Positions 7,355 through 40,216 of a DNA stretch of 64,000 bases are shown here, one piece after another (within the stretch, counting starts at the first letter, position 1; every line of letters starts with the position of its first letter). The translations under genes and the position numbers were made by a program. Origin of the DNA: Microbulbifer elongatus (GTDB lineage: Bacteria > Pseudomonadota > Gammaproteobacteria > Pseudomonadales > Cellvibrionaceae); NCBI RefSeq assembly GCF_021165935.1, contig NZ_CP088953.1, forward strand, positions 1,907,501-1,971,500, read 5' to 3'. The notes under the pieces are model-generated. The model was given only the letters and a program-made list of their open reading frames with translations, searched no databases and was not told where the DNA came from.

Positions 7355-7358
7355 GGCC

Positions 7359-17870: not shown

Positions 17871-17960
17871 CAGCACGGTTGAAGCGGCACGGGGGCGCCG
17901 CAATACCCGTAAGGTAAGGGCAAAGAATTCTGCGCAAGACTAAACTTGCCGGGAATTCCA

Positions 17961-18044: not shown

Positions 18045-18052
18045 ATCTACTC

Positions 18053-18076
18053 GTAGGAGCCTGCTTGCAGGCGAAC
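18053..18076. repeat. Single family A REP (GTAGGAGCCTGCTTGCAGGC)
   Basis: GTAG followed by a GCCTGC/GCAGGC palindrome, directly after the family C pair and 23 bp before the gabD start. Confidence 0.75.
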
Positions 18077-18098
18077 CCAAAGGCACAAGGACCCCCAC

Positions 18099-19556: not shown

Positions 19557-19572
19557 CGCTCCCTATACCAGC

Positions 19573-19665
19573 GTGTCATACCGGCGAATGCCGGTATCCA
19601 GTGCGTTGGCACCGAGGCCGCTTCGTACCACCCACACTGGATCCCGGATCAAGTATGGGATGACG
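19573..19665. repeat. Family B palindromic repeats, gabD-trmO gap
   Basis: TCATACCGGCGAATGCCGGTATCCAGTG followed by CACTGGATCCCGGATCAAG...GGGATGACG. The two halves are partly inverted copies of each other and related to the 12.8 kb array. Confidence 0.75.
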
Positions 19666-19676
19666 TAAAAAATAGA

Positions 19677-23977: not shown

Positions 23978-25690
23978 TTAATCGTTGGTAACCCGGTTGG
24001 CTTCTTCCAGGCTGGTGACTCCCATCACCACTTTGCGCAGAGCCGAGGTTCTGAGGTTGTTGAAGCCTTCTTTTTGCGCTTGGTCAGCAATCTGAATGGA
24101 ATTGCCACCTTCCATTATAATGCGCGAAATTCCGTCGGTGATGCGAACTACTTCATACACACCTACGCGCCCTTTGTAGCCTTTGGAGCAGTGTTCGCAG
24201 CCTACGGGCTGGTATATCTGCCACTCGGTTTTAGGGATGGTAACGGCTTCGAACCCTTCTTCTTGTAAAACTTCTTCCGGGAGCTCGGTCGGTTTTTTGC
24301 ATTCGCCGCATAGTCGCCGTGCTAAACGCTGGGCGATAATGACACTCACTGATGTAGCAATATTGAAGGTTGGGACCCCCATATTCATTAATCGCGTTAG
24401 CGTTTCCGGGGCGGAATTAGTGTGTAAGGTAGAAAGCACCAAGTGACCGGTCTGAGCAGCCTTGATCGCTATTTCTGCGGTTTCAAGATCTCGGATCTCG
24501 CCCACCATTACGATATCCGGGTCTTGGCGAAGGAAAGAGCGCAAGGCCTCGGCAAAGTTTAATCCTACCTTGTTGGAGACGTTAACCTGGTTGATCCCCT
24601 CCAGGTTGATCTCAACAGGGTCTTCTGCCGTGGAGATGTTGCGCTCTGGTGTATTTAGGATGTTTAGGCCGGTATACAGCGATACGGTTTTACCCGAACC
24701 GGTTGGGCCGGTAACCAATATCATCCCTTGGGGTTGTCCTAGTGCGTCTAAGTAAATTTTCTTCTGCTCTTCCTCGTAGCCCAGCGCGTCAATACCCAGC
24801 TTGGCCGAGGAAGGGTCGAGAATCCGCAGTACGATCTTTTCTCCCCACAGGGTAGGAAGGCTGTTGACCCGGAAGTCGATGGCCTTGGTTTTGGACAGCT
24901 TCATCTTGATACGGCCATCCTGGGGTACACGGCGTTCAGAAATATCCATCTTGGACATTACTTTGAGGCGCGCTGAAATTCTTGTGGCGAGTTGAATCGG
25001 TGGACGGGCCACTTCGTGCAGCACACCGTCGGTACGCAGTCGTACTCGGTAAGCCTTTTCATAGGGCTCAAAATGAATGTCTGATGCACCCGTACGGATC
25101 GCATCCAGCAGTACCTTGTTAACGAATCGAACAACCGGAGCTTCATCACCCCCGACATCTCCCTCGTCGTCACGTGTCTGATCGCTCGCATCTACATCTA
25201 GACTGTCCAAGTCATCGTCATCAAGCCCTTCCAGTCCTCCACTGATGTCGCCGCTATTTGAGAGGAAACTCTCGATAGCTTTGGAGAGCTTATCTGCTTC
25301 TACAAGGACAGCCTCGGTATTGAGTCCGGTATTAAAGTTGATCTCATCAAGGCCCGCGAGATTAGTAGGATCTGCCACCGCGATAAAGAGCCTGCTTCCC
25401 CGCTTATACAGTGGCAGTGCAAAGTGCTTGGTGATTAATTTTTCATCAACCACATCTTTGGGTAAAAGGTCAAAATTGTAGCAGGAGAGGTCAAATAGCG
25501 GAGAGCCAAACGCTTGGCTGGCAATATTAGCAAGCTCTCGACTCTTGATCAGCTTGGCCTCCACAGCGTGCTGAGCAAAGCTGTGCCCTTCCCGCTTGGC
25601 TGCTTTTACAGCTGACTGGGCTGTAGGTTCGTCCAAGGCTTTGTCGATAACTAATCGCTTCGCAAGTCCACTGAGGGAGGTACTGCTCAT
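23978..25690 (-). CDS. pilB: Type IV pilus assembly ATPase PilB
   Basis: Hexameric extension motor of type IV pili. The 570-residue protein has an N-terminal MshEN/GSPII_E domain, Walker A GPTGSGKTVSLY, the Asp box, Walker B (DIVMVGEIRDLETAE), the His box STLHTNSAPE and the tetracysteine zinc site (CGEC, CEHC). It is the first gene of pilB-pilC-pilD-coaE-yacG and diverges from pilA. No retraction ATPase pilT is in this window. Confidence 0.97.
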   Translation of the reverse strand: MSSTSLSGLAKRLVIDKALDEPTAQSAVKAAKREGHSFAQHAVEAKLIKSRELANIASQAFGSPLFDLSCYNFDLLPKDVVDEKLITKHFALPLYKRGSRLFIAVADPTNLAGLDEINFNTGLNTEAVLVEADKLSKAIESFLSNSGDISGGLEGLDDDDLDSLDVDASDQTRDDEGDVGGDEAPVVRFVNKVLLDAIRTGASDIHFEPYEKAYRVRLRTDGVLHEVARPPIQLATRISARLKVMSKMDISERRVPQDGRIKMKLSKTKAIDFRVNSLPTLWGEKIVLRILDPSSAKLGIDALGYEEEQKKIYLDALGQPQGMILVTGPTGSGKTVSLYTGLNILNTPERNISTAEDPVEINLEGINQVNVSNKVGLNFAEALRSFLRQDPDIVMVGEIRDLETAEIAIKAAQTGHLVLSTLHTNSAPETLTRLMNMGVPTFNIATSVSVIIAQRLARRLCGECKKPTELPEEVLQEEGFEAVTIPKTEWQIYQPVGCEHCSKGYKGRVGVYEVVRITDGISRIIMEGGNSIQIADQAQKEGFNNLRTSALRKVVMGVTSLEEANRVTND

Positions 25691-26106: not shown

Positions 26107-26520
26107 ATGAAAAAGCAACAGGGCTTTACTCTTATTGAATTGATGATCGTGGTTGCGATCATTGGTATTCTGGCCGCGGTAGCACTGCCGGCGTACCAGG
26201 ACTACACCAAGCGCTCGCACGTGACGGAGGGGCTAGCTCTCGCTTCTGGTGCTAAAGCTGCGGTGCAGGAATATTTTTCCTCAGAGGGAGTGTGGCCAGC
26301 AAATAACAGTGCCGCAGGTCTGGCTTCCAAGACTCTTATCGCTGGTACTTCCGTAAAATCTGTGGAAGTGTTGAATAGTCAGATCACTGTTACTTTCAAT
26401 GCGAAAGTTACTGATGACGCAACTCTGATTCTGACCGGAAGTGATACAGGCGGCTCAATTTCTTGGGTATGTAACGACGGTTCGTTGGATCCGAAATACC
26501 TGCCTTCGCGCTGCCGGTAA
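26107..26520 (+). CDS. pilA: Type IVa major pilin PilA
   Basis: Structural subunit of the type IV pilus. The prepilin has a short leader MKKQQG cut by PilD before Phe+1, then the class III N-terminal helix ([20 protein letters not shown]) with Glu+5. The globular domain ends with the C-terminal disulfide loop pair (WVCNDGS ... PSRCR). The total is 137 residues, in range for type IVa pilins. The ATG at 26107 is chosen for the leader length; GGAG lies nine bases upstream. A strong terminator follows, and then a glycan gene cluster that may modify the pilin (inference). Confidence 0.97.
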
Positions 26521-26535
26521 GATCTCGCACCATGG

Positions 26536-26563
26536 AAAGGGGCTTTTAAAGCCCCTTTTTTTA
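26536..26563 (+). terminator. pilA intrinsic terminator
   Basis: AAGGGGCTTT / AAAGCCCCTT stem directly followed by a T tract (to about 26563), 16 bp after the pilA stop. It separates highly expressed pilA from the glycan cluster. Confidence 0.9.
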
Positions 26564-26580: not shown

Positions 26581-28557
26581 ATGATCAAGTTGTTTTCCCG
26601 TCCAACGCTAGTCAGCATATTTTTGGTTTATGTATACCAACTATTGGTAGTGCTCAGTAAAGCCGGTCCAAGTGGCGACCTAGCCTCCAATTTACTCACC
26701 ACCCTGTCTGTACCAGCTTTATGGTTTGATCTCACGTGGTTTGTGTTGGCAAATATCGTCTTGCTTGTAGTGTGGAATTTACTGCTGTGCTTTTCCTTTT
26801 TGGGGCTAGGCCGAATATTTCCCGGTTTGCGGAAGCCGGTCCTTGTCATTATCTGCTTTGCAGTTTCACTTTGTTTTATTTTCTCCTTAAATGCATATAT
26901 GTTTCCTCTTTCCACCTTCACGTGGGAAGTGGCAACAAAGCTATACCCTTATGTGGCTTTAGTTACAGGCGCTGTTTGGGTGTTTTTAGTGGTTGGTGGC
27001 GTTGTAGTAAGCTGGAGCCATGCTTATAAGGTGAAATGGGCTTCCGTGTTGCTATTGGGGTTCCCCCTCTATGTTTCCATTTCTAATGCGCTTACTAGTC
27101 AGGAGTCGTTGGGCGCAGAAACGCTCTCTCAGCCAAACATCTTTGTTATCGGTGTGGATGCTTTACGCCCAGACTATGTGGGTGCTTACGGTCGCTCGCC
27201 CTCGGTTACGCCAAATATTGATCGGTTATTGGCCATGGCGGAAAGATTTCCGAACGCATACTCTCCGATGGGACGTACACATGTTGCTTGGTATTCGATG
27301 TTGCGTGGCGAGTACCCCGAGAGCCATGGGCTACGCTTCAATCTCGGTGACAAAGACTTGATCGAGCGAAAAATTCCTCTGTTACAGGAGTTAAATAGTG
27401 CCGGTTATCACACAATTTGGGCGATAGATGAGCGACGTTTCAATAACTTTTCAGAAGAATACGGGTTTTTGGAATCAGTTGGGCCGAAATTGGGTGCGGC
27501 CGACTTTATTTTGGGGTTCCTATATGATAACCCGCTGAGCAACTGGTTAATTAATTCCGAAATGGGGAGTTGGTTGTTCCCGTTTGTTCACTCAAATCGG
27601 GCAATGTTCAAGGTTTATAACCCCTACACGTTCGTTAATAAAGTTTCCGATAGGGTTGCTGCCGTATCTTCCAAACCCGTGTTTCTTGCAGTGCATCTAA
27701 CCATGCCCCACTACCCGTTTCTTAACCATATGATGTCTGACCCTGTTGGCTATAGGTTTAGCGGAAAAACGGATCCTGCCGAATATCTATATATGTCCAT
27801 GCTGCAGTTGGTCGATAAACAAGTGGGAAGTTTGATTCAGCAACTAAAGGCTATGGGTAAACTGAATAACAGTATCGTTTACTTGGTGTCAGACCATGGC
27901 GAAGGGCTGTCGATAGATGCCGAGCAGCTTGAAGGTCGCAATCCGTATGCCTCATTAGATTTAACAGTGGCCGGCCATGGGACAAATTTGCTTAACACGG
28001 TACAGAACAAGGTAGTTTTATCGAGAGTGGACTTTAGGAATCCAGCCTCTTTAGTGGATGAGAGTTTGCGAAGCTTAATCGATGTAGGGCCTACTATAGC
28101 GATTGATGCAGGGGTTTCGCCGATTGGTGGGAAAGAAGCTAAGCCATTGACTGCCGCAGTTGCCCCTGATCGAACATTGGTAATGGAAAGTAGTTTTTAT
28201 GTCGATGCTCTCAATCAATCGGCAATAAATGAATTCATGGTGGCGTTGGAGAGCATGGAATTTTACACAGTGGATGTTCAAGCCCGTGTTCATTTAAAGG
28301 ATAAGGTTCTCCCTCTTTTGATGAAGTCCAAGCAGTATGCCGCTATATCTGAGGGGTACTTACTGCCTTTATTGCCATATATGTCGGATGACGCAATTAT
28401 ATTGGATGTGTCTAAGAATAATTGGTGGCCTATGTCTGCTCATGGAGGAGACCTTGATGGAGTCGATTACGATAAGCTTTTAATGGTCGCTTGTGACTAT
28501 CGCTCTAGAAGTGAAGTGGAGCCTTTAGAGGTCTGTGATAAGGCTGGTGAATTATGA
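26581..28557 (+). CDS. Membrane alkaline-phosphatase-superfamily (sulfatase-like) hydrolase/transferase
   Basis: A 658-residue protein with about five N-terminal membrane segments (roughly residues 8-170) and a large extracytoplasmic domain of the sulfatase/alkaline phosphatase fold. Metal-site motifs are visible: IGVDALRPDY, VSDHGEG and AGHGTN. The nucleophile position, in SPMGRTHVAWYSMLRGEYP, is a threonine rather than the Cys/Ser of true sulfatases. That suggests transfer of a phospho-group (as in EptA or LtaS) more than sulfate hydrolysis; this is inference. It is the first gene after pilA and overlaps the next gene by ATGA. Its GC content is low. Confidence 0.8.
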   Translation: MIKLFSRPTLVSIFLVYVYQLLVVLSKAGPSGDLASNLLTTLSVPALWFDLTWFVLANIVLLVVWNLLLCFSFLGLGRIFPGLRKPVLVIICFAVSLCFIFSLNAYMFPLSTFTWEVATKLYPYVALVTGAVWVFLVVGGVVVSWSHAYKVKWASVLLLGFPLYVSISNALTSQESLGAETLSQPNIFVIGVDALRPDYVGAYGRSPSVTPNIDRLLAMAERFPNAYSPMGRTHVAWYSMLRGEYPESHGLRFNLGDKDLIERKIPLLQELNSAGYHTIWAIDERRFNNFSEEYGFLESVGPKLGAADFILGFLYDNPLSNWLINSEMGSWLFPFVHSNRAMFKVYNPYTFVNKVSDRVAAVSSKPVFLAVHLTMPHYPFLNHMMSDPVGYRFSGKTDPAEYLYMSMLQLVDKQVGSLIQQLKAMGKLNNSIVYLVSDHGEGLSIDAEQLEGRNPYASLDLTVAGHGTNLLNTVQNKVVLSRVDFRNPASLVDESLRSLIDVGPTIAIDAGVSPIGGKEAKPLTAAVAPDRTLVMESSFYVDALNQSAINEFMVALESMEFYTVDVQARVHLKDKVLPLLMKSKQYAAISEGYLLPLLPYMSDDAIILDVSKNNWWPMSAHGGDLDGVDYDKLLMVACDYRSRSEVEPLEVCDKAGEL

Positions 28558-30073
28558 TTTTAATGAAGAATAAGCGCTGGGTAAGTGGAGTAAATCTCAC
28601 GTTGTCCCAAAGGATGGCCATTCTACTGCTATCTGTGTCAGTCGGTTCTTTTTACTTCGCCCTCCAAGTGCTTTTCGCTCCCCACCTTCCATTAGTTATG
28701 GATGAGTTTCAAGGTGCTAGTGCAATTTATCAGTCTGTGAGCTCTATCCCCTATCTCAACTTTGTTCCATACAAGCCAGTATTGGGTTATTGGTTTCAGT
28801 CTATTTTTGCTGGAAGTTATGAGTCCGCTTCTCAATATATTGTCGATCTGAAGTTTGGGGTTCGGTTGGTCAATGCATGTTGTCTCGGAATACTTTGTTG
28901 GCTTCTATTAAGGATGGAAGACGTATTCGCCAGTTGGTCAGTAGTATATTCACTAGTTGTGGTTACTTTGGTGTCCACTTTTATTGAGCGGAGTGCGGAG
29001 CTGAGAGTAGACATGCTAACTGTTTGGGTCGGCATGTTTTCAAGCATACTTTTTGTTAAGCAGCGATATCTTTTTGCGGGAACGCTAATTGGATTAGGTT
29101 TTCTCGTTTCACAGAAAATATACTTCTTTGGTGTTGCGTGGGCAGGGGCATTATCACTCTATTGGGTTCTAAAAGATCGAACCTATTCGCTGCTGAAGTA
29201 TGGCAGCTTTTCCGTAATCGGATGTGCGATAGTGATATTGCTTTATATTCTTGTATTCGGTGTGATTTCTGGGTCATTCGAGCGGGTAGTGGATGCACTA
29301 TTTTTCACGCACGCAGATATCGCATTTGGGGATCTGTATGGTGATTTGTCAAGGTTTTGGTATCAATCAATCGAAAGGAACTTGCTGTTCTATTGCTTTG
29401 TATTTTTTTCCCTTGGCAGCGCAATACTTAACCTTAATCGTTTAAGTGATGAGCATTGGAAGTTAGTAGTTTTCTCGCTTATATACGTTTTGCTCTGTCT
29501 GTCACATAAACAACCATGGCCCTATTTCGTTCCTTTCCTGCTGATGTCGGCACTCTTTATGTTTCCAGTCGCTTCAGAGATATGGAAGGGTTCTCCCGGC
29601 TTCGTTTTTTTCTCGGTGTCGTCGCTCTCTATCAGGGTTGTGTTGCCTACGATCGTTATGTGAAGGTCCAGTCAAATCCCAGTGTAGCCTCTTACCAGTT
29701 GCACCAGTTAGACGTGATGGAAGATATACTTGGCCAGCAGGAATATTACTTGGCTGGGTTGAATTTGCTACCACGCAAAGAGCAACCGAAGTCGATGCGT
29801 TGGCTTGATGCAATTGGGTTGGAAAGTCTGAAAGGTGTCAATCCGTCCACCATCATTAGTGAATTGCAGCATGCATCACCTGTTGTTGTGCTTGATAACT
29901 ACAGAATTAGATCACTCCCTGAAAAAGTTGTTGAGTGGATAGACGAGAGGTATGTACATTATTGTGGAAGTGTGTACGTAGCTAATACTCGTAGGGATAT
30001 CCTCGATGTTCACAATGCTGGAAGTACAAGTTGTGAAAAAAAACACTTTTTTAAAAATGTTTATAGCTACTAG
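28554..30073 (+). pseudogene. GT-C type polytopic glycosyltransferase, interrupted by a -1 frameshift
   Basis: Residues 1-353 are read from 28554. They form a polytopic membrane protein with an early Asp-Glu motif (LPLVMDEFQG), as in ArnT/PMT-type GT-C enzymes that use polyprenyl-phosphate sugars, and a KQPWPYFVPFLL loop. That frame ends early at about 29663. The continuation, a membrane helix then a soluble domain of ~140 residues, is in the -1 frame and runs to 30073. The switch coincides with a seven-T run (29605-29611) that is a perfect T TTT TTC slippery heptamer. A -1 shift yields one protein of about 506 residues. Alternatives are a recent inactivating mutation or a homopolymer sequencing error. 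Confidence 0.65.
29606..29612 (+). other. Slippery heptamer T TTT TTC at the frame switch
   Basis: In the upstream reading frame the codons are GTT TTT TTC, so the heptamer is in the correct phase for -1 slippage. After slipping, translation continues CTC GGT GTC into the downstream open frame. No downstream stimulatory structure was verified. Confidence 0.5.
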
Positions 30074-30127
30074 TTTCTGAAGTTTTGATTATCAGCCTTG
30101 CAGCTAATTTAGAGGTTATGTGAACAT

Positions 30128-31336
30128 ATGAGCTTAGCGCTTGCGCCAACTGAGAAAGTTGTAAATCGAGAAGATGGATTTCTTGTTATTGATGTTTCAA
30201 TTGTTATTCCATGTCTCAATGAGGTGGAAACTATTGGTTCAGTGGTTGAAAATGCCCGGTCTGCTTTACGCTTGATCCAGAAGAAATACGAATTAAGTGG
30301 TGAGGTTATTGTTGCTGATAATGGTAGTACTGACGGGAGTGTTGAACTGGCTCAAAAATCTGGAGCCCGAATTGAATACGTAGCTAAGAAAGGTTATGGG
30401 GCTGCAATACGAGGTGGCATTGCTGGCTCTACAGGGCGTTTTATCATCATGGGCGATGCGGACGGTGCCCATAACTTCCATGATGCAGTCCCTATGATTG
30501 GTAAGCTGCTTAGTGGAATTGAGCTATGTATGGGGTCGCGCTTTAAAGGTCATATTTCTCCTGGAAGTATGCCGTTTTGGAATCGCTATGTCGGAAACCC
30601 TTTGTTGACAGGTGTGTTGAATGCACTTTTTAGAAGTGGCATGTCTGATGCTCATTGTGGACTTCGCGCTTTTACTCGGGAAGCTTTTGGTAAGTTAAAG
30701 CTTAGCTCCTCGGGAATGGAGTTCGCGAGTGAAATGCTGATAAAAGGATCTCTATTGAAGATGCGCTTTGCGGAATTGGCCGTGACGCAACATGTCGAAG
30801 GTCGAACACGCGAGCCACATCTTCGTCCTATTCGAGATGGTTGGCGACATTTAAAATATATGCTTTCGCTGGCACCAACCGAAGTTTTCTTTCTTCCGTC
30901 TTTATTTTTTTTCATTCTCGGTGTCGCGATTTATACAATTCTTATCTCTGGCGCTAGTGACTCGATGCAGACTACTCTTGGTTTGAGTTTTGGGGATCAT
31001 TGGGTGGTGCCAGCGTCAATGTTTTTATCGCTCTCACATACATTATTTTTGACTGGAGCGGCTTCTTACTTCTACTCTTTGGCGAGCGGGTATAGGGAAG
31101 ACTCTCGAGGGGCCAACCTGTTGAAATACTTATGTAGGTTGGAGTTTATGCTAATACAAAGCATCTTTTTATTGGTCTCGGCATTAGTTGCCCTCGTTTG
31201 TATACTTCATGGGTGGAGTGATCAGGATTATCAAAATCTAAATGCGATCAGGGAGCTTTCGTTAGTTGGTGCGCTATCATTAGTTGCATTTCAACACTTT
31301 TTTTGCGCGTTCCTGCTTAATTTATTCGATAACTAA
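30128..31336 (+). CDS. GT2 polyprenyl-phosphate glycosyltransferase (DPM1-like) with membrane C-terminus
   Basis: Family 2 glycosyltransferase of 402 residues. The catalytic part (residues about 18-255) has VSIVIPCLNEVETIGSVV, ADNGSTDGS and the metal-binding DAD in MGDADGAHN, like dolichol- or undecaprenyl-phosphate sugar synthases. The last ~150 residues contain about four membrane segments. Such enzymes load a sugar onto a lipid phosphate that a GT-C enzyme then uses, and a GT-C gene lies just upstream, so they are likely partners (inference). AGAGG precedes the ATG at a longish distance. Confidence 0.85.
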   Translation: MSLALAPTEKVVNREDGFLVIDVSIVIPCLNEVETIGSVVENARSALRLIQKKYELSGEVIVADNGSTDGSVELAQKSGARIEYVAKKGYGAAIRGGIAGSTGRFIIMGDADGAHNFHDAVPMIGKLLSGIELCMGSRFKGHISPGSMPFWNRYVGNPLLTGVLNALFRSGMSDAHCGLRAFTREAFGKLKLSSSGMEFASEMLIKGSLLKMRFAELAVTQHVEGRTREPHLRPIRDGWRHLKYMLSLAPTEVFFLPSLFFFILGVAIYTILISGASDSMQTTLGLSFGDHWVVPASMFLSLSHTLFLTGAASYFYSLASGYREDSRGANLLKYLCRLEFMLIQSIFLLVSALVALVCILHGWSDQDYQNLNAIRELSLVGALSLVAFQHFFCAFLLNLFDN

Positions 31337-31380
31337 AGTAATGTGCCAATAATATTGGTTCATGCTTCCAGGGTATCAAT

Positions 31381-32217
31381 ATGAATTCCCCAACGGTTTC
31401 TGTGATAATGCCATGCTTTAATTCAGTGGAATACCTCCCTCAGGCAATTGAAAGCATTTTATGTCAAACCTTCCGTGATTTTGAACTGATAATTGTTGAC
31501 GATGCATCTACAGACGGTAGTTCAGAATTTGCGCTAGCCGCGAGCCGGGTAGACCCTCGTGTTCGTTACTATCGTAACAGAGTCAATAAAGGCGTTATTT
31601 ACTCTCGAAATTTCGCTCTTTTGAAAGCTCGAGGTCGCTTCATTGCATTACAGGATTCCGATGATGTGAGCTTTCCAAAACGGTTAGAGCTGCAAGTCAA
31701 AACATTTAATAGATTTCCCGATGTTGTAATTTGCGGGGGCAATACGCAAATAATCGATGGTGAGGATAACGTCCTCGGCTTTCGGAGTTATCCTAGAAGC
31801 GCAGAAAAAATTGAAAAGTCGCTTCTGTTGGCGAACCCATTCGCGGCTTCTGCTGTGATGGTTCGAAGGGAGGTTTTAGTTGCAGTCGGTGGGTTTGGTA
31901 GTTCTGGAGAGAGTACTGTTGAAGATTACTGGGCTTGGATCCGTGTGCTCCAGAATGGAAATGGTAAAAACCTAAATTCACATTTAATCAAATATAGAGA
32001 GCATTCGTCGGTAGTTCGCGACTCAGTTCGAAGAAAGCTATGGAATACGATACGTTGTAAATTACCCTGGATTTTCACTAGGAAATATTTTTCATTTCTG
32101 GGTCTACTAATTGTTTTTGTGGAACTTTCTTTTATGTTCGTTCCTCAGTCACTTGTGTATCGAGTCTTCTCGTTAGTTAAATACAAAAAACCATTGCGTG
32201 GCCTGATGGGATGCTAA
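31381..32217 (+). CDS. GT2 family glycosyltransferase
   Basis: GT-A fold glycosyltransferase of 278 residues. The N-terminus VSVIMPCFNSVEYLPQAIES, the IIVDDASTDGSSE loop and the DXD-type LQDSDDVSFPKR are all present, and VEDYWAWIRVLQNG matches the acceptor-site ED motif. A hydrophobic stretch near residues 235-260 may attach it to the membrane. It probably adds one sugar during repeat-unit assembly; the specificity cannot be read. It overlaps the flippase gene by seven bases. Confidence 0.88.
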   Translation: MNSPTVSVIMPCFNSVEYLPQAIESILCQTFRDFELIIVDDASTDGSSEFALAASRVDPRVRYYRNRVNKGVIYSRNFALLKARGRFIALQDSDDVSFPKRLELQVKTFNRFPDVVICGGNTQIIDGEDNVLGFRSYPRSAEKIEKSLLLANPFAASAVMVRREVLVAVGGFGSSGESTVEDYWAWIRVLQNGNGKNLNSHLIKYREHSSVVRDSVRRKLWNTIRCKLPWIFTRKYFSFLGLLIVFVELSFMFVPQSLVYRVFSLVKYKKPLRGLMGC

Positions 32218-33545
32218 TTTTTAGGGGGCGCTTAAGTGTTGTTAAATTTGGTCGACGAGAGCGCTTCTTTCTGGAGGTTGGTAGATCCTATTCTTTCCAA
32301 GCTTTATCTGCTATATCTACTCTTGCTCTCACTATATTGATTGCAAAAATGCTGCCCATTGAGCTAGCTGCATTTTCCTTCAAAGTTTTGGCGGTGGCAG
32401 CTTTGCTAAGCAGCTGCCTTCGATTTGGTGCTGATAATTACCTTGCTAAAAGAGTTGCAGAGGTATCATTCTCCGACTCTGGTGTGATAGCTGCTTCGAT
32501 GTATTTTTCCTATTTCTTGTTTTCGCTGTTATCATACTTATTGTTTTTGGGCTTGATTTTTATTGCTTGGCAGGGTTCTCACTTCTTTAGTTGGCCCTTG
32601 GAGTTTCCGGTATTTTTCTTGTACGGTGTGGCATTAGCTTTTCCATTTTCAATCCACTGGTTAGCCTCACTTGTTTTTCACGGCTTTGGGTGGTACTCAT
32701 CTAGAAGCTTATTTCAATTTACGCTATTCAATGTATTGGTTTTGGTGGGGCTCCTGTATCTTCATTTTCGATATCTTACACTAACGGAACATATCATCGG
32801 GGGTAGTATTGTTTTCTCTTCGTGGCTAGTGGCGGTGCTATCGCTTGGGTTGCTTCATAAATCAAGGTTGCGGCTGCTATCATTGCAGTCCTTGCAAGCC
32901 AGCTTTAAGTCTTTCAAGCAATCTTGGTTGGATCTTTTGCGGCAATCTTTTCCTCTGTTGGGCGGCGTTGCATGTCTTGCGGCAATTAACGCCTTAGGGG
33001 TGTTTTCACTTTCAATTTGGTCGGATTCTGAGGATGTTGCAATTTTTTCAATTGTGCAGAGGGTGGCAGCAATAGTTTTAATCGTTCAAATGCCAATTGT
33101 TGCTGTTTTTGTTCGGAATGCGGCTGTTCTCAGGGCGAAAAAAGTTCCACCCAAAGTCTTAACGATTCTTCTTCTTAAGTGCATGGGAGGAGCTGGTGTG
33201 ATGATGTTCTGTGTCGCGTTGTTCATGCTTTTCTTTGGTCGATATTCAATTGCGGTGTTGGTGCCTGATTACGTTGGCTTGGGCTTCGGCGTGGGCTTGC
33301 AGTTATTATTGGTGGGTATGGTTCTATACGGGTTGAGCGGATTTTTTGTCGCACTTTTGACTGTTCTGGAAAAGCTGCGAATTGTACTGGTTATTAATGT
33401 TAGTGCACTTTTTGTTCTGGCGGTTAGCTTGGCCTTGTTGGTGCCAAAGTTTGGTGTATTAGGTGCTGTAGTCTCGTATATAGTTTCTTTCTCGGTGTTA
33501 TTTGCTTTCGGGGCTTCTGCTACAAAAGCTTCTTTTAATTATTAA
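32211..33545 (+). CDS. Wzx-like polysaccharide flippase (MATE/MOP superfamily)
   Basis: A 444-residue integral membrane protein with about twelve predicted helices. The N-terminus SYSFQALSAISTLALTILIAK resembles O-unit and teichoic-acid flippases. Its place among glycosyltransferases supports a role in moving a lipid-linked glycan across the inner membrane. No Wzy polymerase or chain-length regulator was recognised in the cluster, so the glycan may be short or be transferred by another route. The call is from topology and context. Confidence 0.78.
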   Translation: MLIFRGRLSVVKFGRRERFFLEVGRSYSFQALSAISTLALTILIAKMLPIELAAFSFKVLAVAALLSSCLRFGADNYLAKRVAEVSFSDSGVIAASMYFSYFLFSLLSYLLFLGLIFIAWQGSHFFSWPLEFPVFFLYGVALAFPFSIHWLASLVFHGFGWYSSRSLFQFTLFNVLVLVGLLYLHFRYLTLTEHIIGGSIVFSSWLVAVLSLGLLHKSRLRLLSLQSLQASFKSFKQSWLDLLRQSFPLLGGVACLAAINALGVFSLSIWSDSEDVAIFSIVQRVAAIVLIVQMPIVAVFVRNAAVLRAKKVPPKVLTILLLKCMGGAGVMMFCVALFMLFFGRYSIAVLVPDYVGLGFGVGLQLLLVGMVLYGLSGFFVALLTVLEKLRIVLVINVSALFVLAVSLALLVPKFGVLGAVVSYIVSFSVLFAFGASATKASFNY

Positions 33546-33566
33546 TCGTGGTACTGTTAAGTATAA

Positions 33567-34592
33567 ATGATTGACTTTGTTATCACTTGGGTGGATGGTG
33601 AAGATCCGAGTTGGGTGCGAGACTTGGAATATTTTAAGAGAGTAGAAGGCTCAGGGGATTCTTCATCAGCTAGGTATCGGGATATAGGAGTATTGAAGTA
33701 TTTGCTTCGGAGTATTGAAAAGAATGCCAGCTGGGTGAATAAAGTATATTTGGTGACAGAGGGACATATCCCGCACTGGTTAGATCCTGCTTGCCGTAAT
33801 TTAGTTTGTGTTCGGCATAGTGATATTTTTACTGAATTGGCGGCGCTTCCGGTTTTTAATTCAAATGCCATTGAGATGAATTTGAGCAAAATTGTGGGGC
33901 TAAGCGAAAAATTTGTGCTTTTCAATGACGATTGCTTGTTGGTCAATCCGGTCAAGGAGTCAGACTTTTTTAACGGCGCGTTTCCGTGTGATTTTTTTAT
34001 TGACAACCCCTTTAAGGCTCTCGCGATCAAACTCCTAGGATTGGCGGAGGCAGATAGTACTTGGTTTTCTTGCATTAGGCGAAATCATGCTCGCTTGAAT
34101 TCAGTGTACGAGAAACGTTTATCAGAATTATTTCTAACAGGTAAGTACTTGGATCGGTCCTATGGTTTTTGGGGGAATTTTTGTAATTTCCTGTCGCTCT
34201 TTTTTGGGCGCTTCTTGTTTATTGAGCATTTTCACCATCCCCAGCCCTATTTGAAGTCTACGTGGGAGTTGGCGCTACGAAAGTTTTCTGAAGATGTAAC
34301 GAGAACAACTTTTCAAAAGTTCAGAGGTGGAGAAGACGTTACACATTATTTGTTCAGATATGTTCAGTTGGCGTCCGGCCAGTTTTATCCGAAAGTTCCA
34401 CCGAAATGTAATACGTTCAACTTGGCCAGTTTGCGCGATGCTGAGTTTTGCGTGGCGCATATCCAAAAATACACCCACGTATGCATAAATGATACACCTG
34501 ATTTACCCGAAAGCAGCTTTTTTGCTGCTCGGAGTTTGATTGTTGATTGTCTTGATTCTTTGTTTCCTGAAAAATCCCGCTTCGAAAAGTGA
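33567..34592 (+). CDS. Stealth-family sugar-phosphate transferase
   Basis: A 341-residue protein with all four Stealth conserved regions. They are CR1 (IDFVITWVDGEDPSW, residues 2-16), CR2 (LRSIEKNASWVNKVYLVTEG through KFVLFNDDCLL), a CR3-like segment (HFHHPQPYLKSTWE) and CR4 near residues 280-325. Known members (SacB, XcbA, GlcNAc-phosphotransferase) transfer hexose-1-phosphate onto capsule or glycans, giving phosphodiester-linked sugars. It is the last gene of the cluster, 21 bp after the flippase. The acceptor is unknown; a surface or pilin glycan is an inference. Confidence 0.88.
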   Translation: MIDFVITWVDGEDPSWVRDLEYFKRVEGSGDSSSARYRDIGVLKYLLRSIEKNASWVNKVYLVTEGHIPHWLDPACRNLVCVRHSDIFTELAALPVFNSNAIEMNLSKIVGLSEKFVLFNDDCLLVNPVKESDFFNGAFPCDFFIDNPFKALAIKLLGLAEADSTWFSCIRRNHARLNSVYEKRLSELFLTGKYLDRSYGFWGNFCNFLSLFFGRFLFIEHFHHPQPYLKSTWELALRKFSEDVTRTTFQKFRGGEDVTHYLFRYVQLASGQFYPKVPPKCNTFNLASLRDAEFCVAHIQKYTHVCINDTPDLPESSFFAARSLIVDCLDSLFPEKSRFEK

Positions 34593-35052: not shown

Positions 35053-35349
35053 ATGACCAACCAAAGAAAATCCGAATTCTGGTAGAAGCATATCGCGGAC
35101 TGGCAAACCAGCGGGCTATCGCAGATAGCCTACTGTGAGCAGCACAATCTCAAGCTCAGCACCTTCACCTACTGGCGCAGCAAGCAGAGTAAATCTCGGC
35201 CAAAGCTGATGCCGGTAACGATGCCAACAGTCACCGAGCTGGCTGAGCTCTCACTGCCGGGCGGCATCCACCTTCAGCTTCCGGTCTCCGCCCTGGAGCA
35301 AACATTACAAGTACTGTGGCGCATGCTGCGAGAACAGAGCACATGCTAA
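35053..35349 (+). pseudogene. tnpA: IS66-family TnpA (Orf1) remnant
   Basis: Reads MTNQRKSEFW, an in-frame TAG at 35083-35085, then KHIADWQTSGLSQIAYCEQ and KLSTFTYWR, the pattern of IS66 TnpA helix-turn-helix accessory proteins, ending at the TAA 35347-35349. The early stop, with no downstream ATG restoring the HTH, suggests it is inactive. It overlaps tnpB by seven bases, as in intact IS66 elements. Confidence 0.8.
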
Positions 35350-35561
35350 GGCCAGCGCAGTCCGCTCTAGTCTACCTGTACATGGAGCCCGTGGATATGC
35401 GCAAGTCCATTGATGGGGTCGCGGCGCTGGTGGAACAGGAGATGGACCTATCACCTGCGCTAGAAGCTATCTTCGTGTTCTGCAACCGCGGCCGCGACAA
35501 GATCAAGCTTCTGTACTGGGAGCGCAATGGCTTCGTGGTCTTGTACAAGCGGCTCGTCTAG
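35343..35561 (+). pseudogene. tnpB: IS66-family TnpB (Orf2), 3'-truncated
   Basis: Starts MLRPAQSALVYLYMEPVDMR and contains FVFCNRGRDKIKLLYWERNG, diagnostic of IS66 TnpB, but stops after 72 residues (FVVLYKRLV) where intact TnpB is around 115. The truncation lies just before the RAYT gene region, so a later insertion probably removed the rest, including tnpC. Confidence 0.88.
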
Positions 35562-35605
35562 GGGTCAAATCTTGACATAACAGTATTCAGGTCTACCTTT
35601 ATGAC

Positions 35606-36592
35606 ATGAGCAGACCTTTACGACTGGAATACCCCGGAGCTTGGTATCACGTGATGAATCGCGGCCTGGCCCGGCAAGAAACCTTTCTCAGTGCGGATTG
35701 CTATTCCGCGTTTCTCGACACGCTGTCTGAGTCCCACCAGCGGTTTCAGGTTCATGTACACGCCTATTGTTTGATGGGCAATCACTACCATCTTCTTCTG
35801 CATACCCCGCAGGGCAATCTCAGCCGGGCGATGCGCCATATCAATGGTGTTTACACGCAGCGCTTTAACCGGCTGCATGGGCGGGATGGCCCTTTGTTTC
35901 GGGGGCGCTATAAGGCAATTCTGGTGGAGGCGGATCAATATCATCTGTCGCTAACCCGATATATTCACCGCAATCCCATTGAGACACGCCGTCCGCTGGC
36001 GGATCAGTTGGAGGAATACCCCTGGTCCAGTTATCCCGCGTACCTAAACCTTTGCAAATCCCCGGGCTGGTTGTATCGGGATTTTACCTACGCGGCGTTG
36101 GGCCGCCGGGACAAGTACCGGGGCTACCGGCAGTTCGTGGAGCAGGGTGTGGATGAGGAGGTGGCGGCATTTTACGAGCGTCAGCGGCAGTCGCCATTTC
36201 TTGGCGGTGAGGTGTTCCAGGAGGAAATGCGCTCACGGCTTGGTGAGATACCGCCCGAGGTGAGCGGCGTGGCCGGTGACGGCGACACTTCGGTTGGGTA
36301 TGTGACGATTGTGGAGGTTGTTGCAATGGTCTTTGAGCGGCAGGCTGATGACCTTTATAAGCGCTCGGCGCCTGGGCGCTCTGGCGCGAATCCGGCGCGT
36401 GCGGTGGCTATGTGGCTTTGTCAGGATCTGGCGGGGATGACGCTGCCAGAGATTGGCGAGGTGTTTGGTGGTGTGCATTACAGTGCGGTGAGTCAGGCGG
36501 TGCGGCGGATAAAGGAGAAGGTGAGGGGAAGCGCCGAATTGAGTCGCCTGTTTGAAGCAGCAAGGGTTAAGGTTTCGGGACGCGGGTTGTGA
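35606..36592 (+). CDS. REP-associated tyrosine transposase (RAYT, Y1/HUH) with DnaA-like C-terminus
   Basis: Single-strand transposase/endonuclease related to IS200/IS605 TnpA. The 328-residue protein has the HUH motif (His60, His62 in MGNHYHLLLH) and the RYKAILVEADQYHLSLTRYIHRNP segment with the probable catalytic tyrosine region. It also has a C-terminal domain resembling the DnaA DNA-binding helix-turn-helix (TLPEIGEVFGGVHYSAVSQAVRR). Short inverted GGTCAAA sequences flank it near 35567 and 36600. It appears intact. RAYTs cut REP palindromes marked by GTAG, and such repeats occur in this window. Confidence 0.9.
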   Translation: MSRPLRLEYPGAWYHVMNRGLARQETFLSADCYSAFLDTLSESHQRFQVHVHAYCLMGNHYHLLLHTPQGNLSRAMRHINGVYTQRFNRLHGRDGPLFRGRYKAILVEADQYHLSLTRYIHRNPIETRRPLADQLEEYPWSSYPAYLNLCKSPGWLYRDFTYAALGRRDKYRGYRQFVEQGVDEEVAAFYERQRQSPFLGGEVFQEEMRSRLGEIPPEVSGVAGDGDTSVGYVTIVEVVAMVFERQADDLYKRSAPGRSGANPARAVAMWLCQDLAGMTLPEIGEVFGGVHYSAVSQAVRRIKEKVRGSAELSRLFEAARVKVSGRGL

Positions 36593-36707
36593 GATTGACT
36601 TTGACCTGTGAGTCATGATGCCGTGTGTCGGCTTGAACCCGTTGTGACTAAGTGAGCAAGCACTATAATCGGCCGGAAGGTGATTTTTATGACTCTTGGA
36701 AGGGAAA

Positions 36708-37139
36708 ATGACTCTAAACGTGGATCATCTGTGCCGGACGGTGGATACACTGGCTGTTGCGCTCGAAGAGTTGGGTAAGGTATCGCCGGGCAGTGTTCAA
36801 TACGATCTGTTTCGTAATGCCGCCATCAAGAGTTTTGCGCTGTCGCTGGAAACATCAGGAAAGTTGTTGCGTAAGGCGTTGAAGGCATTTTCTGGGAGCC
36901 CGCGACAAGTTGATAGGCTGGTTTTCAATGATGTACTGAGAAACGCTGGGACTCATGGTTTGCTGAGTATAGGTGAGGTCGAGCGTTGGCTCGAGTATCG
37001 CGCCGACCGGAACACCACGGCGCAGGACTATGGCGAGCAATTCGCTAATGAAACGTTAGTGCTCTTACCCCGTTATGTTGAGGATGCCAGGGCGCTAGCC
37101 AAGGTATTGTCGGAGATGACTGATGGCACCCAAGCTTGA
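36708..37139 (+). CDS. HI0074-family HEPN-like partner of a nucleotidyltransferase
   Basis: A 143-residue all-alpha protein of the nucleotidyltransferase substrate-binding (HI0074/HEPN) family. The core FRNAAIKSFALSLETSGKLLRKAL is typical. The HEPN RNase motif RX4HXY is partly present: Arg78 and His83 are kept (RNAGTHGL), but residue 85 is Leu instead of Tyr. That Tyr is the residue modified in HepT, so RNase activity or its control may differ. The ATG at 36708 follows GGAAGGG. It overlaps the next gene by 17 bases, forming a two-gene module. Confidence 0.82.
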   Translation: MTLNVDHLCRTVDTLAVALEELGKVSPGSVQYDLFRNAAIKSFALSLETSGKLLRKALKAFSGSPRQVDRLVFNDVLRNAGTHGLLSIGEVERWLEYRADRNTTAQDYGEQFANETLVLLPRYVEDARALAKVLSEMTDGTQA

Positions 37140-37452
37140 TTTGTTACCGCGATACGCGGAAGGCGTGTTGCGTATTCTCGATGAACAGGTTCCGGAGGCT
37201 GAAGTCTGGGCATTCGGTAGCCGGGTGGTGGGCGGGGCTCATGAAGGCAGTGACCTGGATCTGGTGCTTCGCAACCCTGGTGATCTTACTGCGCCCTTAT
37301 CTGGTCTAGGGGCACTCATAGAGGCCCTGAGCCAAAGTACTATTCCGATTCTGGTTGAAGTGCATGATTGGGCTCGGTTACCGGATTCATTTCACGAAGA
37401 AATCGAGAAAAAAAGCCTACTTTTTCGGGTGCCCGTAAAGCCCGCGGCTTGA
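37123..37452 (+). CDS. Minimal nucleotidyltransferase (HI0073/MNT family)
   Basis: A 109-residue polymerase-beta-like nucleotidyltransferase. The GSX10DXD signature is complete: Gly32-Ser33 in WAFGSRVVGG and Asp44/Asp46 in SDLDLVL. Members pair with HI0074 or HepT proteins; in characterised MntA-HepT systems the enzyme attaches AMP residues to the toxin and neutralises it. Translation is coupled to the upstream HEPN-like gene. A toxin-antitoxin or defence role is inferred from family and pairing. Confidence 0.85.
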   Translation: MAPKLDLLPRYAEGVLRILDEQVPEAEVWAFGSRVVGGAHEGSDLDLVLRNPGDLTAPLSGLGALIEALSQSTIPILVEVHDWARLPDSFHEEIEKKSLLFRVPVKPAA

Positions 37453-37598
37453 ATAATTCACTGGCGTCAGGCCTTGCCATCACATTGGTATAGTGTAGTG
37501 GCACACTGAATTTGTGCCATGAGGGATATGATGGGCTTCAAAGTTTGTCAATCATTGAGGTGTAGCCCTACGGTCGGCGCTTGTCGTGCGTCTATGGG

Positions 37599-38018
37599 TT
37601 AGTCGGTGCTGCCGCAAAGCAGCTCGCAACAATGCTCCACAAAAAGACCAACCTTTTTGTATTTCTGTTCTTCCAGCACGGCTCTGATTAGCTCCCAGTC
37701 CAGGTTGAGGTAGTCGTGCACGATGGCATTGCGCATGCCTACAGCACCCTTCATTTCTTGTGCGCTCACGTTCGTCAGGGGGTGGTGTTCCAGTAGCTGG
37801 GCGATGGCGCTCGCGGCTTCACTTCGAGCGGGGTAATTCAGTTTCTTGTTGGCATGTTTGGTTGCGCCGATAGCGGCTTCTATCAGTATTTGCAGGCTGC
37901 GCTCTGCGGCTGTGCGCTCTAACAGACCAGTTTCCGGTGTGCTTCGGATGGTATCCAGTAGTCGCTCGTGGACTTTTGTTTGCTCAATGAGTGCTGTGCA
38001 ATATGCCTGGTAATTCAT
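37599..38018 (-). CDS. hepT: HepT-like HEPN ribonuclease toxin
   Basis: A 139-residue HEPN-domain (DUF86) protein with an intact RX4HXY motif: Arg96, His101, Tyr103 in RNAIVHDY. Known HepT proteins cleave RNA or tRNA and are neutralised by AMPylation of the motif tyrosine by MntA. The ATG at 38018 overlaps the MntA stop (TAATG), giving tight coupling, with AAGG upstream. It points toward the other MNT/HEPN pair, ending about 150 bp from it. Confidence 0.88.
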   Translation of the reverse strand: MNYQAYCTALIEQTKVHERLLDTIRSTPETGLLERTAAERSLQILIEAAIGATKHANKKLNYPARSEAASAIAQLLEHHPLTNVSAQEMKGAVGMRNAIVHDYLNLDWELIRAVLEEQKYKKVGLFVEHCCELLCGSTD

Positions 38019-38425
38019 TACTTGGTGACCTTTTGTAGTGATTCCAGGTGCCACCGCTGGTCTGCCCATAGCCCTTCTATTCGGCTGATTTCTTTGCAGT
38101 AGCGGAGTTCGTCGAGGATTAATAGCGGTGTGCCGTCCTCGATCACATTTATGGCTAGCGGTATGGGAGCGAGGTTGATATCGATTACTTGAACAGGCAC
38201 ATGGAATTGCTGTGTTAAGTCTATAGCGATGGTTTCAGGTAATAGCCGCCTTTCAGCATAGGATTGCTGAAAGTTGTTCACCGCGATAGCGATATCGTAG
38301 TCGCTATCTTCGGTTTGTTCGCCTCTGGCTCGCGAGCCATAAAGCCAGGCTGCAGCGAGGTTGTCCACCGATTGCAGGTGATTTTTGATGGCGTTGATTG
38401 TTTGGACGTCATTTGCTGAGGTCAT
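38018..38425 (-). CDS. mntA: MntA-like nucleotidyltransferase antitoxin
   Basis: A 135-residue minimal nucleotidyltransferase with GSX10DXD intact (Gly30-Ser31 in WLYGSRARGE and Asp42/Asp44 in SDYDIAIAV). In studied systems MntA uses ATP to add AMP to HepT and blocks its RNase activity. The ATG at 38425 is chosen because upstream codons are not family-like, although no strong ribosome-binding site is visible. Gene order is antitoxin then toxin, the reverse of the neighbouring plus-strand pair. Confidence 0.88.
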   Translation of the reverse strand: MTSANDVQTINAIKNHLQSVDNLAAAWLYGSRARGEQTEDSDYDIAIAVNNFQQSYAERRLLPETIAIDLTQQFHVPVQVIDINLAPIPLAINVIEDGTPLLILDELRYCKEISRIEGLWADQRWHLESLQKVTK

Positions 38426-38568
38426 AGACGTACGGCATTGGTTGGGATTGCTGTACCCGGCACTGTACCGCGAACCCCGGAGTACTTCTACTGCGCGTTG
38501 AGGATGGCGTCGAATAGAAGAGGAGTAAGGCAACTTTCTCCCAGCCTTTGATACTCGGTCACTTATGC

Positions 38569-40044
38569 CTACTCCACTCTAAAAGTCTCCACCATCGCCG
38601 GCACCCCCGGAAACATCCCAATCGCCAACATCACAACACACAGCAGAGCAAAAACAATCCCGGGAATTATCCAGCGGCCAGTGTGCCCAAGCTCCTTCCC
38701 ACGTTCCTTACACCCAATCAGCCCCAGATTGTCCAGCAGTACCGTCAATGACCAGCCAAACACTGGGTTGACGATGGCGGAGGAGAAAATGACCACGGCG
38801 GCGGATTCGGTAGTCTTGCCCTTACGGGTCATCTGCATGCCGGCCTCCAGCAGTGGCAGGAAGACGCCGACGATGAGGGCAATGCTCAATACTGGCGGCC
38901 ATACGGCGAGATCCATGGGGTACCCAAGGATGGCTGTGGCGATACACAGGATACCGGTGAGCACGGCGCCGCCGGGGATTGGCCGTTTGGCGATTGCCGC
39001 CGGCACGATATAGGTGCCCCAGGATGAGGTGATATTGGCGCCCCCCAGTACACTGCCGACCATCTGCCGGGATGCGGCGCCGATCATGGTGTCGTCGATA
39101 TTCATGATTACCCGGTCGGTGTTTTTCGGGTAGTTGAGTCGCTGGAACACCTGGTGGCCGAGGAAGTCCGGGGACCACATGGCGACGGCGAGAATGGCGA
39201 AGGGGGTGACCGCCAGAAACGCCTTCAAGTCCGGTAAACCCAGTTGCCAGCCGGTGGATTCTCCCCACCAGTACGCCGGGTTCATGTTCGGCAGGCCGGG
39301 TTCGGTAGTGAATTCGAAGGGCGCCCCCAGTGCAAAAGCTATCAGGCCGGCCAGCAGACAACCCAGCGGAATGGCGAGCCAGCGTTTGCGGAAGTGCTCG
39401 AGCAACGCGTACATGACAATGGTGGCCAGCAATACGATGAAGGCGATGTGCCCTTTGTCGAAGCTTTCCGCCCAGCTGAACAGGCGACCCACCTGGCTGG
39501 TGACGCCAATAAACCCGAGATAGAGTAGCAGCCCGCCCGTTACTCCATTGCTGGTCAGTCGCGTCAGCAGGCTTCCGCCCTTGGTGATACCCAGTATAAA
39601 GCCCAGTATCCCGATCATGATTCCCAGCGCCATAGGGTGCCCACCGGAGGCGACCACCAGTGGGATCATGGGAATGAGCGGGCCGTGGGTGCCGGGCAGG
39701 TTGGCGGTGGGGTTCAGAAATCCGGAAAGGAAGAAGGCGAACAGTACCGCGGCGATCAGCATCTCGAAGCGGATATTCTCCGTCATAAATTCCGCGGACA
39801 GTCCCAGTGGGGTGGCGAAGGCTGCGACGATAGCCGCCACCATGACGACCTTGCCGATCGTGGCGGCCATGGCGGGAATCCAGTCTTCCCACTCAAAGCG
39901 GTAATCGCGAAACGGATAATTGGGGGCCCAGCGGCGCGGGGCCATGACTTGCAGTTCGTGTTCCAGGTAGGCTTCGCGGGTGGCAAACGCGGCTCTCGGC
40001 TTGCGCTGTGCTCGGTAGCTGTTCTCGTGGTGAGGCTCTGTCAT
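38569..40044 (-). CDS. DUF3360-family putative membrane permease
   Basis: A 491-residue polytopic inner-membrane protein with about twelve hydrophobic segments after a hydrophilic N-terminal ~70 residues. The HGPLIPMIPLVVASGGHPMAL and SSWGTYIVPAAIAKRPIPGG regions recall the DUF3360 group, which is distantly like NCS2/SulP transporters. The substrate is unknown; no enzyme genes are adjacent to suggest one. It lies beyond the accessory island, where GC rises again. Confidence 0.72.
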   Translation of the reverse strand: MTEPHHENSYRAQRKPRAAFATREAYLEHELQVMAPRRWAPNYPFRDYRFEWEDWIPAMAATIGKVVMVAAIVAAFATPLGLSAEFMTENIRFEMLIAAVLFAFFLSGFLNPTANLPGTHGPLIPMIPLVVASGGHPMALGIMIGILGFILGITKGGSLLTRLTSNGVTGGLLLYLGFIGVTSQVGRLFSWAESFDKGHIAFIVLLATIVMYALLEHFRKRWLAIPLGCLLAGLIAFALGAPFEFTTEPGLPNMNPAYWWGESTGWQLGLPDLKAFLAVTPFAILAVAMWSPDFLGHQVFQRLNYPKNTDRVIMNIDDTMIGAASRQMVGSVLGGANITSSWGTYIVPAAIAKRPIPGGAVLTGILCIATAILGYPMDLAVWPPVLSIALIVGVFLPLLEAGMQMTRKGKTTESAAVVIFSSAIVNPVFGWSLTVLLDNLGLIGCKERGKELGHTGRWIIPGIVFALLCVVMLAIGMFPGVPAMVETFRVE

Positions 40045-40216
40045 TAAGGTGTCCTTGGCCAGCTCCGCAGGCGTTTCGCTAACTATAGACTCGGGGCAGT
40101 GCGGGGTCGGGAAGGAGGGGCGGGAGAATTACCCGCAGGTTGTGGATAATGTGGAGCAGCCTGTGTCGACACTAGAATTAAGGGGTGATCCTCCACGCCA
40201 ATAGGAGCCTCAGCTA

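Follow-up and report, generated by a model that had tools for sequence, protein, structure and literature searches.

Pilin glycosylation loci of the TfpW and TfpO kinds sit behind the major pilin gene pilA in Pseudomonas, and in Neisseria the membrane enzymes PptA and PptB, which belong to the alkaline phosphatase (AP) superfamily and whose genes are not known to lie next to pilE, place phospho-groups on the pilin; both glycosylation genes linked to pilA and pilin phosphotransferases of the AP type thus have known examples, and pilin decoration affects phage adsorption and adhesion. LtaS/LtaP and YejM/PbgA are also membrane proteins with five helices and a periplasmic AP-fold domain. Here we analyse a stretch of 64,000 nucleotides of Microbulbifer elongatus (assembly GCF_021165935.1, contig NZ_CP088953.1, positions 1,907,501 to 1,971,500), called the window, in which a six-gene cluster that begins with an AP-superfamily membrane enzyme lies directly behind pilA. 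The region probably serves pilin modification, as a cassette exchanged by horizontal transfer at a hotspot behind pilA, and its AP enzyme would put a phospho-group on the pilin or its glycan, or trim one. The pilin gene and the cluster, with glycosyltransferases of the GT-C and GT2 kinds and E-values in brackets, are laid out as follows.

26107..26520, plus strand: pilA, major type IV pilin, 137 amino acids, C-terminus ...YLPSRCR
26534..26560, plus strand: terminator-like hairpin between pilA and the cluster
26581..28557, plus strand: AP-superfamily membrane enzyme, 658 amino acids (Pfam Sulfatase 2.3e-23, Phosphodiest 6.3e-13)
28554..29663, plus strand: GT-C transferase, N-terminal piece, 369 amino acids, ends early
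29583..29696, plus strand: interval of the reading-frame change, with a T7 run at 29605-29611 (T TTT TTC when read in the frame of the N-terminal piece)
29516..30073, plus strand: GT-C transferase, C-terminal piece, -1 frame, DUF7056-like end
30128..31336, plus strand: GT2a, polyprenyl-phosphate-sugar synthase type, 402 amino acids (Glycos_transf_2 1.8e-16)
31381..32217, plus strand: second GT2, GT2b (Glycos_transf_2 8e-33)
32211..33545, plus strand: Wzx-like lipid-linked glycan flippase
33567..34592, plus strand: Stealth-type sugar-phosphate transferase

The order, strands and coordinates of these six genes, proposed beforehand in a sequence-only reading of the window, are all borne out by the sequence; Pfam upheld the assignments of the AP-superfamily enzyme, both GT2 proteins and the Stealth protein, and profile comparison that of the Wzx-like flippase. 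The GT-C transferase, counted there as one gene, is read from 28554-29663 and then from 29516-30073 in another frame, so that the six genes occupy seven open frames. Like the TfpW/TfpO loci, which have a transferase directly behind the major pilin, a polytopic GT-C or Wzy_C enzyme and strain-variable content, the site has TfpX/Z (NCBIfam NF041437) and Wzy_C members in the genus; in contrast, the window itself is without TfpO, TfpX/Z and arabinose-donor genes and adds the AP-superfamily enzyme, Stealth and Wzx. No Wzy_C protein of the TfpO/PilO kind stands beside pilA in the window, and a putative GT-C protein, assigned by homology and encoded by a split gene, does, so that a likeness to TfpW is no more than possible. 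Polyprenyl-phosphate arabinose donor genes are absent among the six cluster genes and present behind pilA in loci L071, L074 and L082 of the genus.

The structure model of the AP enzyme (mean predicted local distance difference test score, pLDDT, 87.8) has five long N-terminal helices, counted on the model, and an AP-superfamily domain at residues 182-655, its best structural fits being sulfatases, YejM/PbgA and LtaP; EptA and LtaS itself are unlisted by the fold tools, an absence that does not exclude them. LtaS-like phosphotransferases of this superfamily, which move a head group off phosphatidylglycerol or a different lipid, have five transmembrane helices, a periplasmic AP fold and a Thr nucleophile with metal residues, and the window's enzyme shows the same architecture: five modelled helices, the AP domain, LtaP among the fits, a predicted nucleophile at T233 and putative metal residues at D193, D438, H439 and H466. 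It differs from LtaS/LtaP and YejM/PbgA in its pilin-linked context and shares 13-14% identity with them. EptA/PptA-type phosphoethanolamine transferases are marked by the EptA_B_N membrane domain (PF08019), which was not reported for this enzyme, Pfam giving Sulfatase, Phosphodiest and DUF229 only at E-values up to 0.1; with PptA/PptB it would share the character of a membrane AP-superfamily enzyme acting on pilin. An MCR-type transferase family of NCBIfam was matched marginally (0.0097, far below cut-off), over residues 404-453 only. A sulfatase was also considered. The formylglycine sulfatases (S1) carry Cys or Ser in a C/S-x-P-x-R nucleophile motif, and the AP enzyme has Thr at the formylglycine position; in the alignment with 6bia, T233 falls on the catalytic Cys, and the Arg of the motif is missing, so the nucleophile rules this assignment out. 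It is unlikely that the enzyme is not a transferase but a non-catalytic or hydrolytic partner (e.g., a regulator like YejM, a phosphatase for the lipid carrier, or a phosphodiesterase trimming the sugar-phosphate made by Stealth), given that the nucleophile and the putative metal residues vary little or not at all over the 54 rows of an alignment (the Thr is invariant there, with one Ser among 19 in another comparison); trimming of a Stealth product is moreover not a general role of the family, since the open reading frames (ORFs) of the other compared AP loci gave no Stealth match by BLAST.

The evidence that ties this family to pili comes from its neighbours in other genomes, where it recurs next to pilins although the relatives are just 22-32% identical to the window's enzyme. 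In an order-wide sample, a profile search of whole genomes found the AP family in 14 of 381, and, besides the window's own, 10 of the 13 show a major pilin within 1.5 kb of flanking sequence, across five families and with three in one genus; among these 10, a PilB-like frame is also present in 8 and a frame similar to Wzy_C transferases in 3. A scan of named genomes with the single AP protein returned nothing, and its repeat with the family alignment returned 68 loci, with a major pilin within 600 bp of the AP gene in 17 and within 7 kb in 19 (L211 weak), counts which come from a six-frame recount, given that the first ORF caller had missed shadowed pilins (13 adjacent). Flp-type pilins lie within 7 kb in 8 further named loci (L151, L152, L153, L155, L157, L158, L215 and L163), six from Shewanella, one from Psychromonas and one from a metagenome-assembled genome labelled Deltaproteobacteria; Pfam Flp_Fap, checked in two of the eight, was above cut-off in L163 and below it in L151, and Tad genes were confirmed in L151, L153 and L163. 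The class-wide sample added 19 other genomes with an AP relative (open frames of 639-740 amino acids), pilA adjoining in several; over its 20 stretches a pilin stands within 600 bp in 4 and within 7 kb in 7 (one weak), and its counts are kept separate from those of the named set, with which it shares contigs (at least L130/L150, L135/L165, L137/L169 and L140/L164). As a control, no pilin was found in 30 loci of weaker, other sulfatase-family matches in the genus (1.5-kb flanks, some loci overlapping). Since many loci have short contigs, the linkage counts are lower bounds; the AP relatives are not independent of one another. In a tree of 63 AP proteins, the label of a pil locus (18 rows including the window, assigned when the Tad links, L194 and L213 had not yet come to light) needs 5 changes vs. 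15.8 in shuffles. The window's enzyme groups with that of L150, whose gene shares an operon with pilA (support 88), and both fall within a larger group (support 97) that also takes in Porticoccus (pilA-AP), Shewanella and Psychromonas.

The pilin-linked AP genes also have recurring transferase partners. Wzy_C proteins stand beside them or in their operon in L130/L150, L132, L174, L202, L209 and L214, and polytopic proteins of the GT-C type in L217 (PMT_2 below cut-off) and L160 (by alignment with L217), while the GT-C-type neighbours in L154, L180 and L182 had no Pfam match or were judged by eye. In Pseudoxanthomonas dokdonensis the gene order is pilA-AP-GT-C-pilB, and its GT-C protein, whose model is of low confidence (pLDDT 62; best hits EmbA/B, PglB, ALG9 and ArnT), aligns with AP-linked proteins of Shewanella (L151, PMT_2 3e-6), Povalibacter and L163; AP occurs together with GT-C near Flp-type pilins in L151-L153 and L163. 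It is conceivable, though somewhat short of an even chance, that the AP family consists of membrane transferases largely dedicated to pili, both type IVa pilA and Flp/Tad, which are paired with GT-C or Wzy_C enzymes to give a phospho-modified pilin glycan, the pilin head and its modification genes being exchanged as one module behind pilA. What is possibly new here is an AP family that, paired with GT-C or Wzy_C, keeps turning up next to both pilA and Flp pilins in proteins far apart in sequence. If the family does act as pilin phosphotransferases, many uncharacterised sulfatase-like genes beside pilus genes would gain a testable role. As a separate observation, Povalibacter uvarum (L160, about 3100-19800) carries two adjacent AP genes, a GT-C gene, flippase-like and methyltransferase-like genes and pilBC/pilR, and its pilin, 224 bp from an AP gene, was seen only in the six-frame recount.

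Within the genus, pilB was found in all 48 genomes, and the pilA side was compared in 46 of the 47 relatives, G020 being left out with its pilB near a contig end. The gene content behind pilA differs from species to species, a tallied cassette family being present in 29 of the 46 relatives. Over the 47 loci including the window, the tallied clusters are a beta-lactamase-fold protein alone in 7, Wzy_C (TfpO-like) in 6, a TfpX/TfpZ accessory gene in 5, a GT2 clustering with the window's (27-58% identity) plus one of two other GT-C-like families in 5, an arabinan-type donor set in 3, a Dlt-like set in 3, and none of the tallied families in 17, with the window unique; families were tallied by BLAST clusters, and each named family had a single representative compared with the family libraries (TfpX/TfpZ 4.9e-92; also Wzy_C, TfpO-like), the names DprE-like, UbiA-like and sugar dehydrogenase being given by eye. 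In 25 of 25 measurable relatives the genes of the cassette are richer in AT than those of the flank, by 12.6 points on average (25 of 30 cassette loci; flank genes from the chosen clusters were lacking in the window and in four relatives). The proposal of a horizontally acquired, pilin-linked cluster held up on several counts: the full-length AP gene is absent from the 47 other genomes, 13 of which have weak sulfatase-type matches, and so is Stealth; the segment is AT-rich; and the link to pilin is further backed by pilin-modification families at the same site in relatives and by AP beside pilA outside the genus. The gene families, the pilA linkage of the AP family across the order and beyond, and the replacement of whole cassettes in the genus are read from the sequences themselves; phospho-decoration of the pilin by this cluster is a candidate function. 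With about eight cassettes as alternatives at a single site, the genus lends itself to comparison, and, if the AP family is a pilin phosphotransferase, a simple genomic rule would let the pilin modification of a strain be predicted from the genes that follow pilA.

The closest cassette in the genus is that of relative G009 (L099), with the order pilA - GT-C - GT2 - GT4 - flippase - GT2 at 36-41% guanine-cytosine (GC) content, its first GT2 being 58% identical to the window's GT2a; it differs in its other GT-C family (cluster c42, TPR type in one member), its GT4, and its having neither AP nor Stealth. GT2a has PDB matches to the DPM synthase 5mlz (5.7e-10) and ArnC 9hwj (1.5e-8), and the top NCBIfam match of GT2b is EpsE (7.9e-38, below cut-off). 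The flippase has no direct Pfam or NCBIfam match and aligned with Wzx-type flippases from relatives (hhalign 97% probability, E 9e-11) in a profile made of five relatives' proteins, two of them Pfam-checked (Polysacc_synt). The Stealth protein has the CR2 (8e-38) and CR1 (9.9e-8) regions above Pfam cut-offs, CR3 at cut-off and CR4 slightly below, which together we rate as membership of the family, and PDB matches to CpsY 8j2n (8.2e-33) and GNPTAB 7s6n (3.7e-25). Wzx, two GT2 proteins and Stealth are typical of surface polysaccharide loci, and an ordinary O-antigen, capsule or exopolysaccharide cassette, with Stealth and Wzx as its core, could have come to lie behind pilA by chance, which we regard as quite improbable. 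On its side, part of the region behind pilA in L068, L069, L077, L086 and L103 is taken up by genes of polysaccharide type, which by eye encode a UDP-sugar dehydrogenase, an undecaprenyl sugar-phosphotransferase or flippases (that of L077 by Pfam), and the full six-gene set is in none of the loci read elsewhere, which leaves a standing set of these genes unsupported. Chance would not, however, lead one to expect the AP-pilin linkage in 10 of 13 genomes of the same order, nor that relatives carry, at this site, recognised families of pilin accessory proteins and transferases. As the sequence-only reading had it, no Wzy polymerase was recognised in the cluster by Pfam scans, and the sole Wzy_C match above cut-off in the genome is far off at C1:39896, so that the Wzx-like flippase has no Wzy partner recognised in the cluster.

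The GT-C gene bears on whether the cassette is still alive. Its N-terminal piece is 28% identical to a Ruegeria GT39/PMT_2 protein of 498 amino acids over residues 133-349 (6e-19), and its C-terminal piece matches residues 379-464 of the same protein (3e-7), both E-values being single comparisons; as the two pieces match successive parts of one protein, the frame changes within 29583-29696. DUF7056, which the Ruegeria protein also carries, matches the C-terminal piece below cut-off (3.7e-4). The tie to the AP-linked GT-C proteins is made of weak profile matches and shared motifs, the N-terminal piece being collinear with that family (profile E 7e-4, listed probability 26%) and the C-terminal piece having its C-terminal motif (1.4e-3, 17%), and the Ruegeria match is the stronger one. 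By BLAST against the ORFs of AP loci and genus loci the pieces found the window itself only, among the 390 genomes of the order sample the N-terminal piece had a match in 1, that of the window, and a plasmid search gave a single GT-C match, in Ruegeria; intact single-frame relatives exist in Ruegeria, P. dokdonensis and Shewanella. We think it somewhat unlikely that the cassette was once active and is now partly dead. Decay would be in line with the frame change, with the bordering IS66 relics and with the existence in G198 of an AP relative that lies beside a pilin and is broken by three internal stops. Against such decay, the other five genes are uninterrupted, the conserved AP residues are intact, and the T7 run could permit -1 frameshifting or could be a homopolymer assembly error, no stimulating or otherwise outstanding RNA structure being found downstream of it (z +1.17); the split may stem from decay, from frameshifting or from an assembly error.

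For the preferred pilin-modification cassette, the following course may be proposed. The polyprenyl-phosphate GT2 would load a sugar onto a lipid carrier, and the GT-C enzyme, if the split gene still gives an active protein, would move the sugar in the periplasm to the pilin or pilin glycan; GT2b and Wzx would build and flip a short lipid-linked glycan, Stealth would add a sugar through a phosphodiester, and the AP enzyme would transfer a phospho-group (e.g., phosphoglycerol or phosphoethanolamine from a membrane lipid) to the pilin or glycan, or trim one. Comparative support covers the AP, GT2 and GT-C types, and Stealth, GT2b and Wzx are tied to the pilin by position only.

Several observations weigh against this proposal. 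Neither a pilin nor a Flp pilin lies within 7 kb in 41 of the 68 named loci; the case that would have spoken against the sequence-only reading, homologues found only in far-off capsule loci, was checked for the AP gene and mostly gave the opposite result, apart from those 41. A phylum-wide sample of 398 genomes yielded three other AP carriers, none with a pilin in the flank (one of the three is also in the order sample, and both samples contain the window's genome and G382). A large Legionellales-rich clade of AP proteins is located elsewhere than pilin loci, and the tree has long end branches, including the window's, which makes its position unsure. The GT-C gene is split, and no oligosaccharyltransferase was recognised in the cluster by Pfam scans, as had been noted from the sequence. 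The placing of Stealth in pilin decoration did not find support either, the window's being the only Stealth gene in the 48 genomes of the genus, with none found by BLAST of the ORFs in the other compared loci.

Legionella AP relatives (L162, L179, L188, L190, L191 and L109) have, by gene sizes, one common neighbour arrangement in which no pilin was found; in L. adelaidensis (L109), the only one whose neighbours were named, the AP gene is near dnaX-ybaB-recR and adjoins a DUF547 gene. This arrangement may reflect a second role of the family. The plasmid search returned distant AP matches only, the best by coverage and identity (31%) being from Legionella adelaidensis, near recR.

The surroundings of the cluster contain the following features.

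21205-21819, minus strand: coaE (CoaE 4.5e-62), conserved left flank
21824-22708, minus strand: pilD (Pfam Peptidase_A24 3.5e-26), conserved left flank
22726-23943, minus strand: pilC (Pfam T2SSF 1.1e-67), conserved left flank
23978..25690, minus strand: pilB (Pfam T2SSE 1.6e-154), conserved left flank
35053..35561, plus strand: IS66 relics, an orfA-like frame whose codon 11 is a stop (judged by eye) and TnpB_IS66 at 35343-35561
35556..40056: right flank common to relative G026 at 88-89% identity, starting with a REP-associated transposase gene

The AT-richness attributed to the cluster is confirmed, GC being 42-47% across 26-35 kb vs. 53-64% in 1-kb bins over 1-23 kb and from 35 kb on; the drop starts already in pilC (47%) and pilB (51%), left of the cluster and both below the outer window. 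The pilA product matches Pilin (3.1e-24) and N_methyl (1.4e-11) in Pfam, for the longer ORF, and the TIGR02532 domain above cut-off. A terminator-like hairpin does stand directly 3' of pilA, as had been read, at 26534-26560, although such sites are no commoner than in shuffles (11 in the region vs. 10.8), and read-through of it would be needed for the pilA promoter to drive the cluster. Rfam and tRNA scans of the window had no matches. The IS66 remnants reported at the right border are likewise there, TnpB_IS66 at 35343-35561 with E 1e-25, and the orfA-like stretch at 35086-35340 has no Pfam match. The DNA match to near relative G026 breaks off at 26207 inside pilA and picks up again at 35556, which places pilin head and cluster in a single block of difference; they may have been exchanged as a unit, although pilin heads diverge fast.

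Other contents of the site behind pilA deserve mention. A beta-lactamase-fold serine hydrolase occurs there in nine genomes (L067, L070, L078, L079, L092, L100, L102, L105 and L106), and a distant relative of it (387 amino acids) is near pilA in L169 at about 14112-15275, the same gene in L137 matching Beta-lactamase at 5e-37. The Dlt-like set of L070, L075 and L092 comprises an acyl-AMP ligase, a DltB-like MBOAT protein (TIGR04091 2.8e-47, below cut-off), a sulfotransferase and one protein without a match, and possibly acylates the pilin. Pilins at the 10 loci with the beta-lactamase-fold gene or the Dlt-like set have 5-28 residues after the last Cys, and at the other 34 loci this tail has at most 5 residues in 28 (Mann-Whitney p 4.5e-5; 44 of 47 loci, the three that lacked a called pilin being left out, with just the first pilin of each locus counted). 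The arabinan-type donor genes of L071, L074 and L082 (UbiA-like and DprE1/DprE2-like, by eye) are accompanied by GT-C-like proteins, and one protein of these loci matches a terminal arabinofuranosyltransferase model (8.1e-14, below cut-off). To the right of the cluster, the REP-associated transposase gene at 35606-36592 (Y1_Tnp 2.2e-11), with a DnaA C-terminal helix-turn-helix domain behind (Bac_DnaA_C 1.4e-11), is also present in G026, and just beyond it, at 36696-37452 and 37599-38533, lie two pairs of a nucleotidyltransferase with a HepT or substrate-binding-like partner, which resemble toxin-antitoxin systems of the MNT/HepT type.

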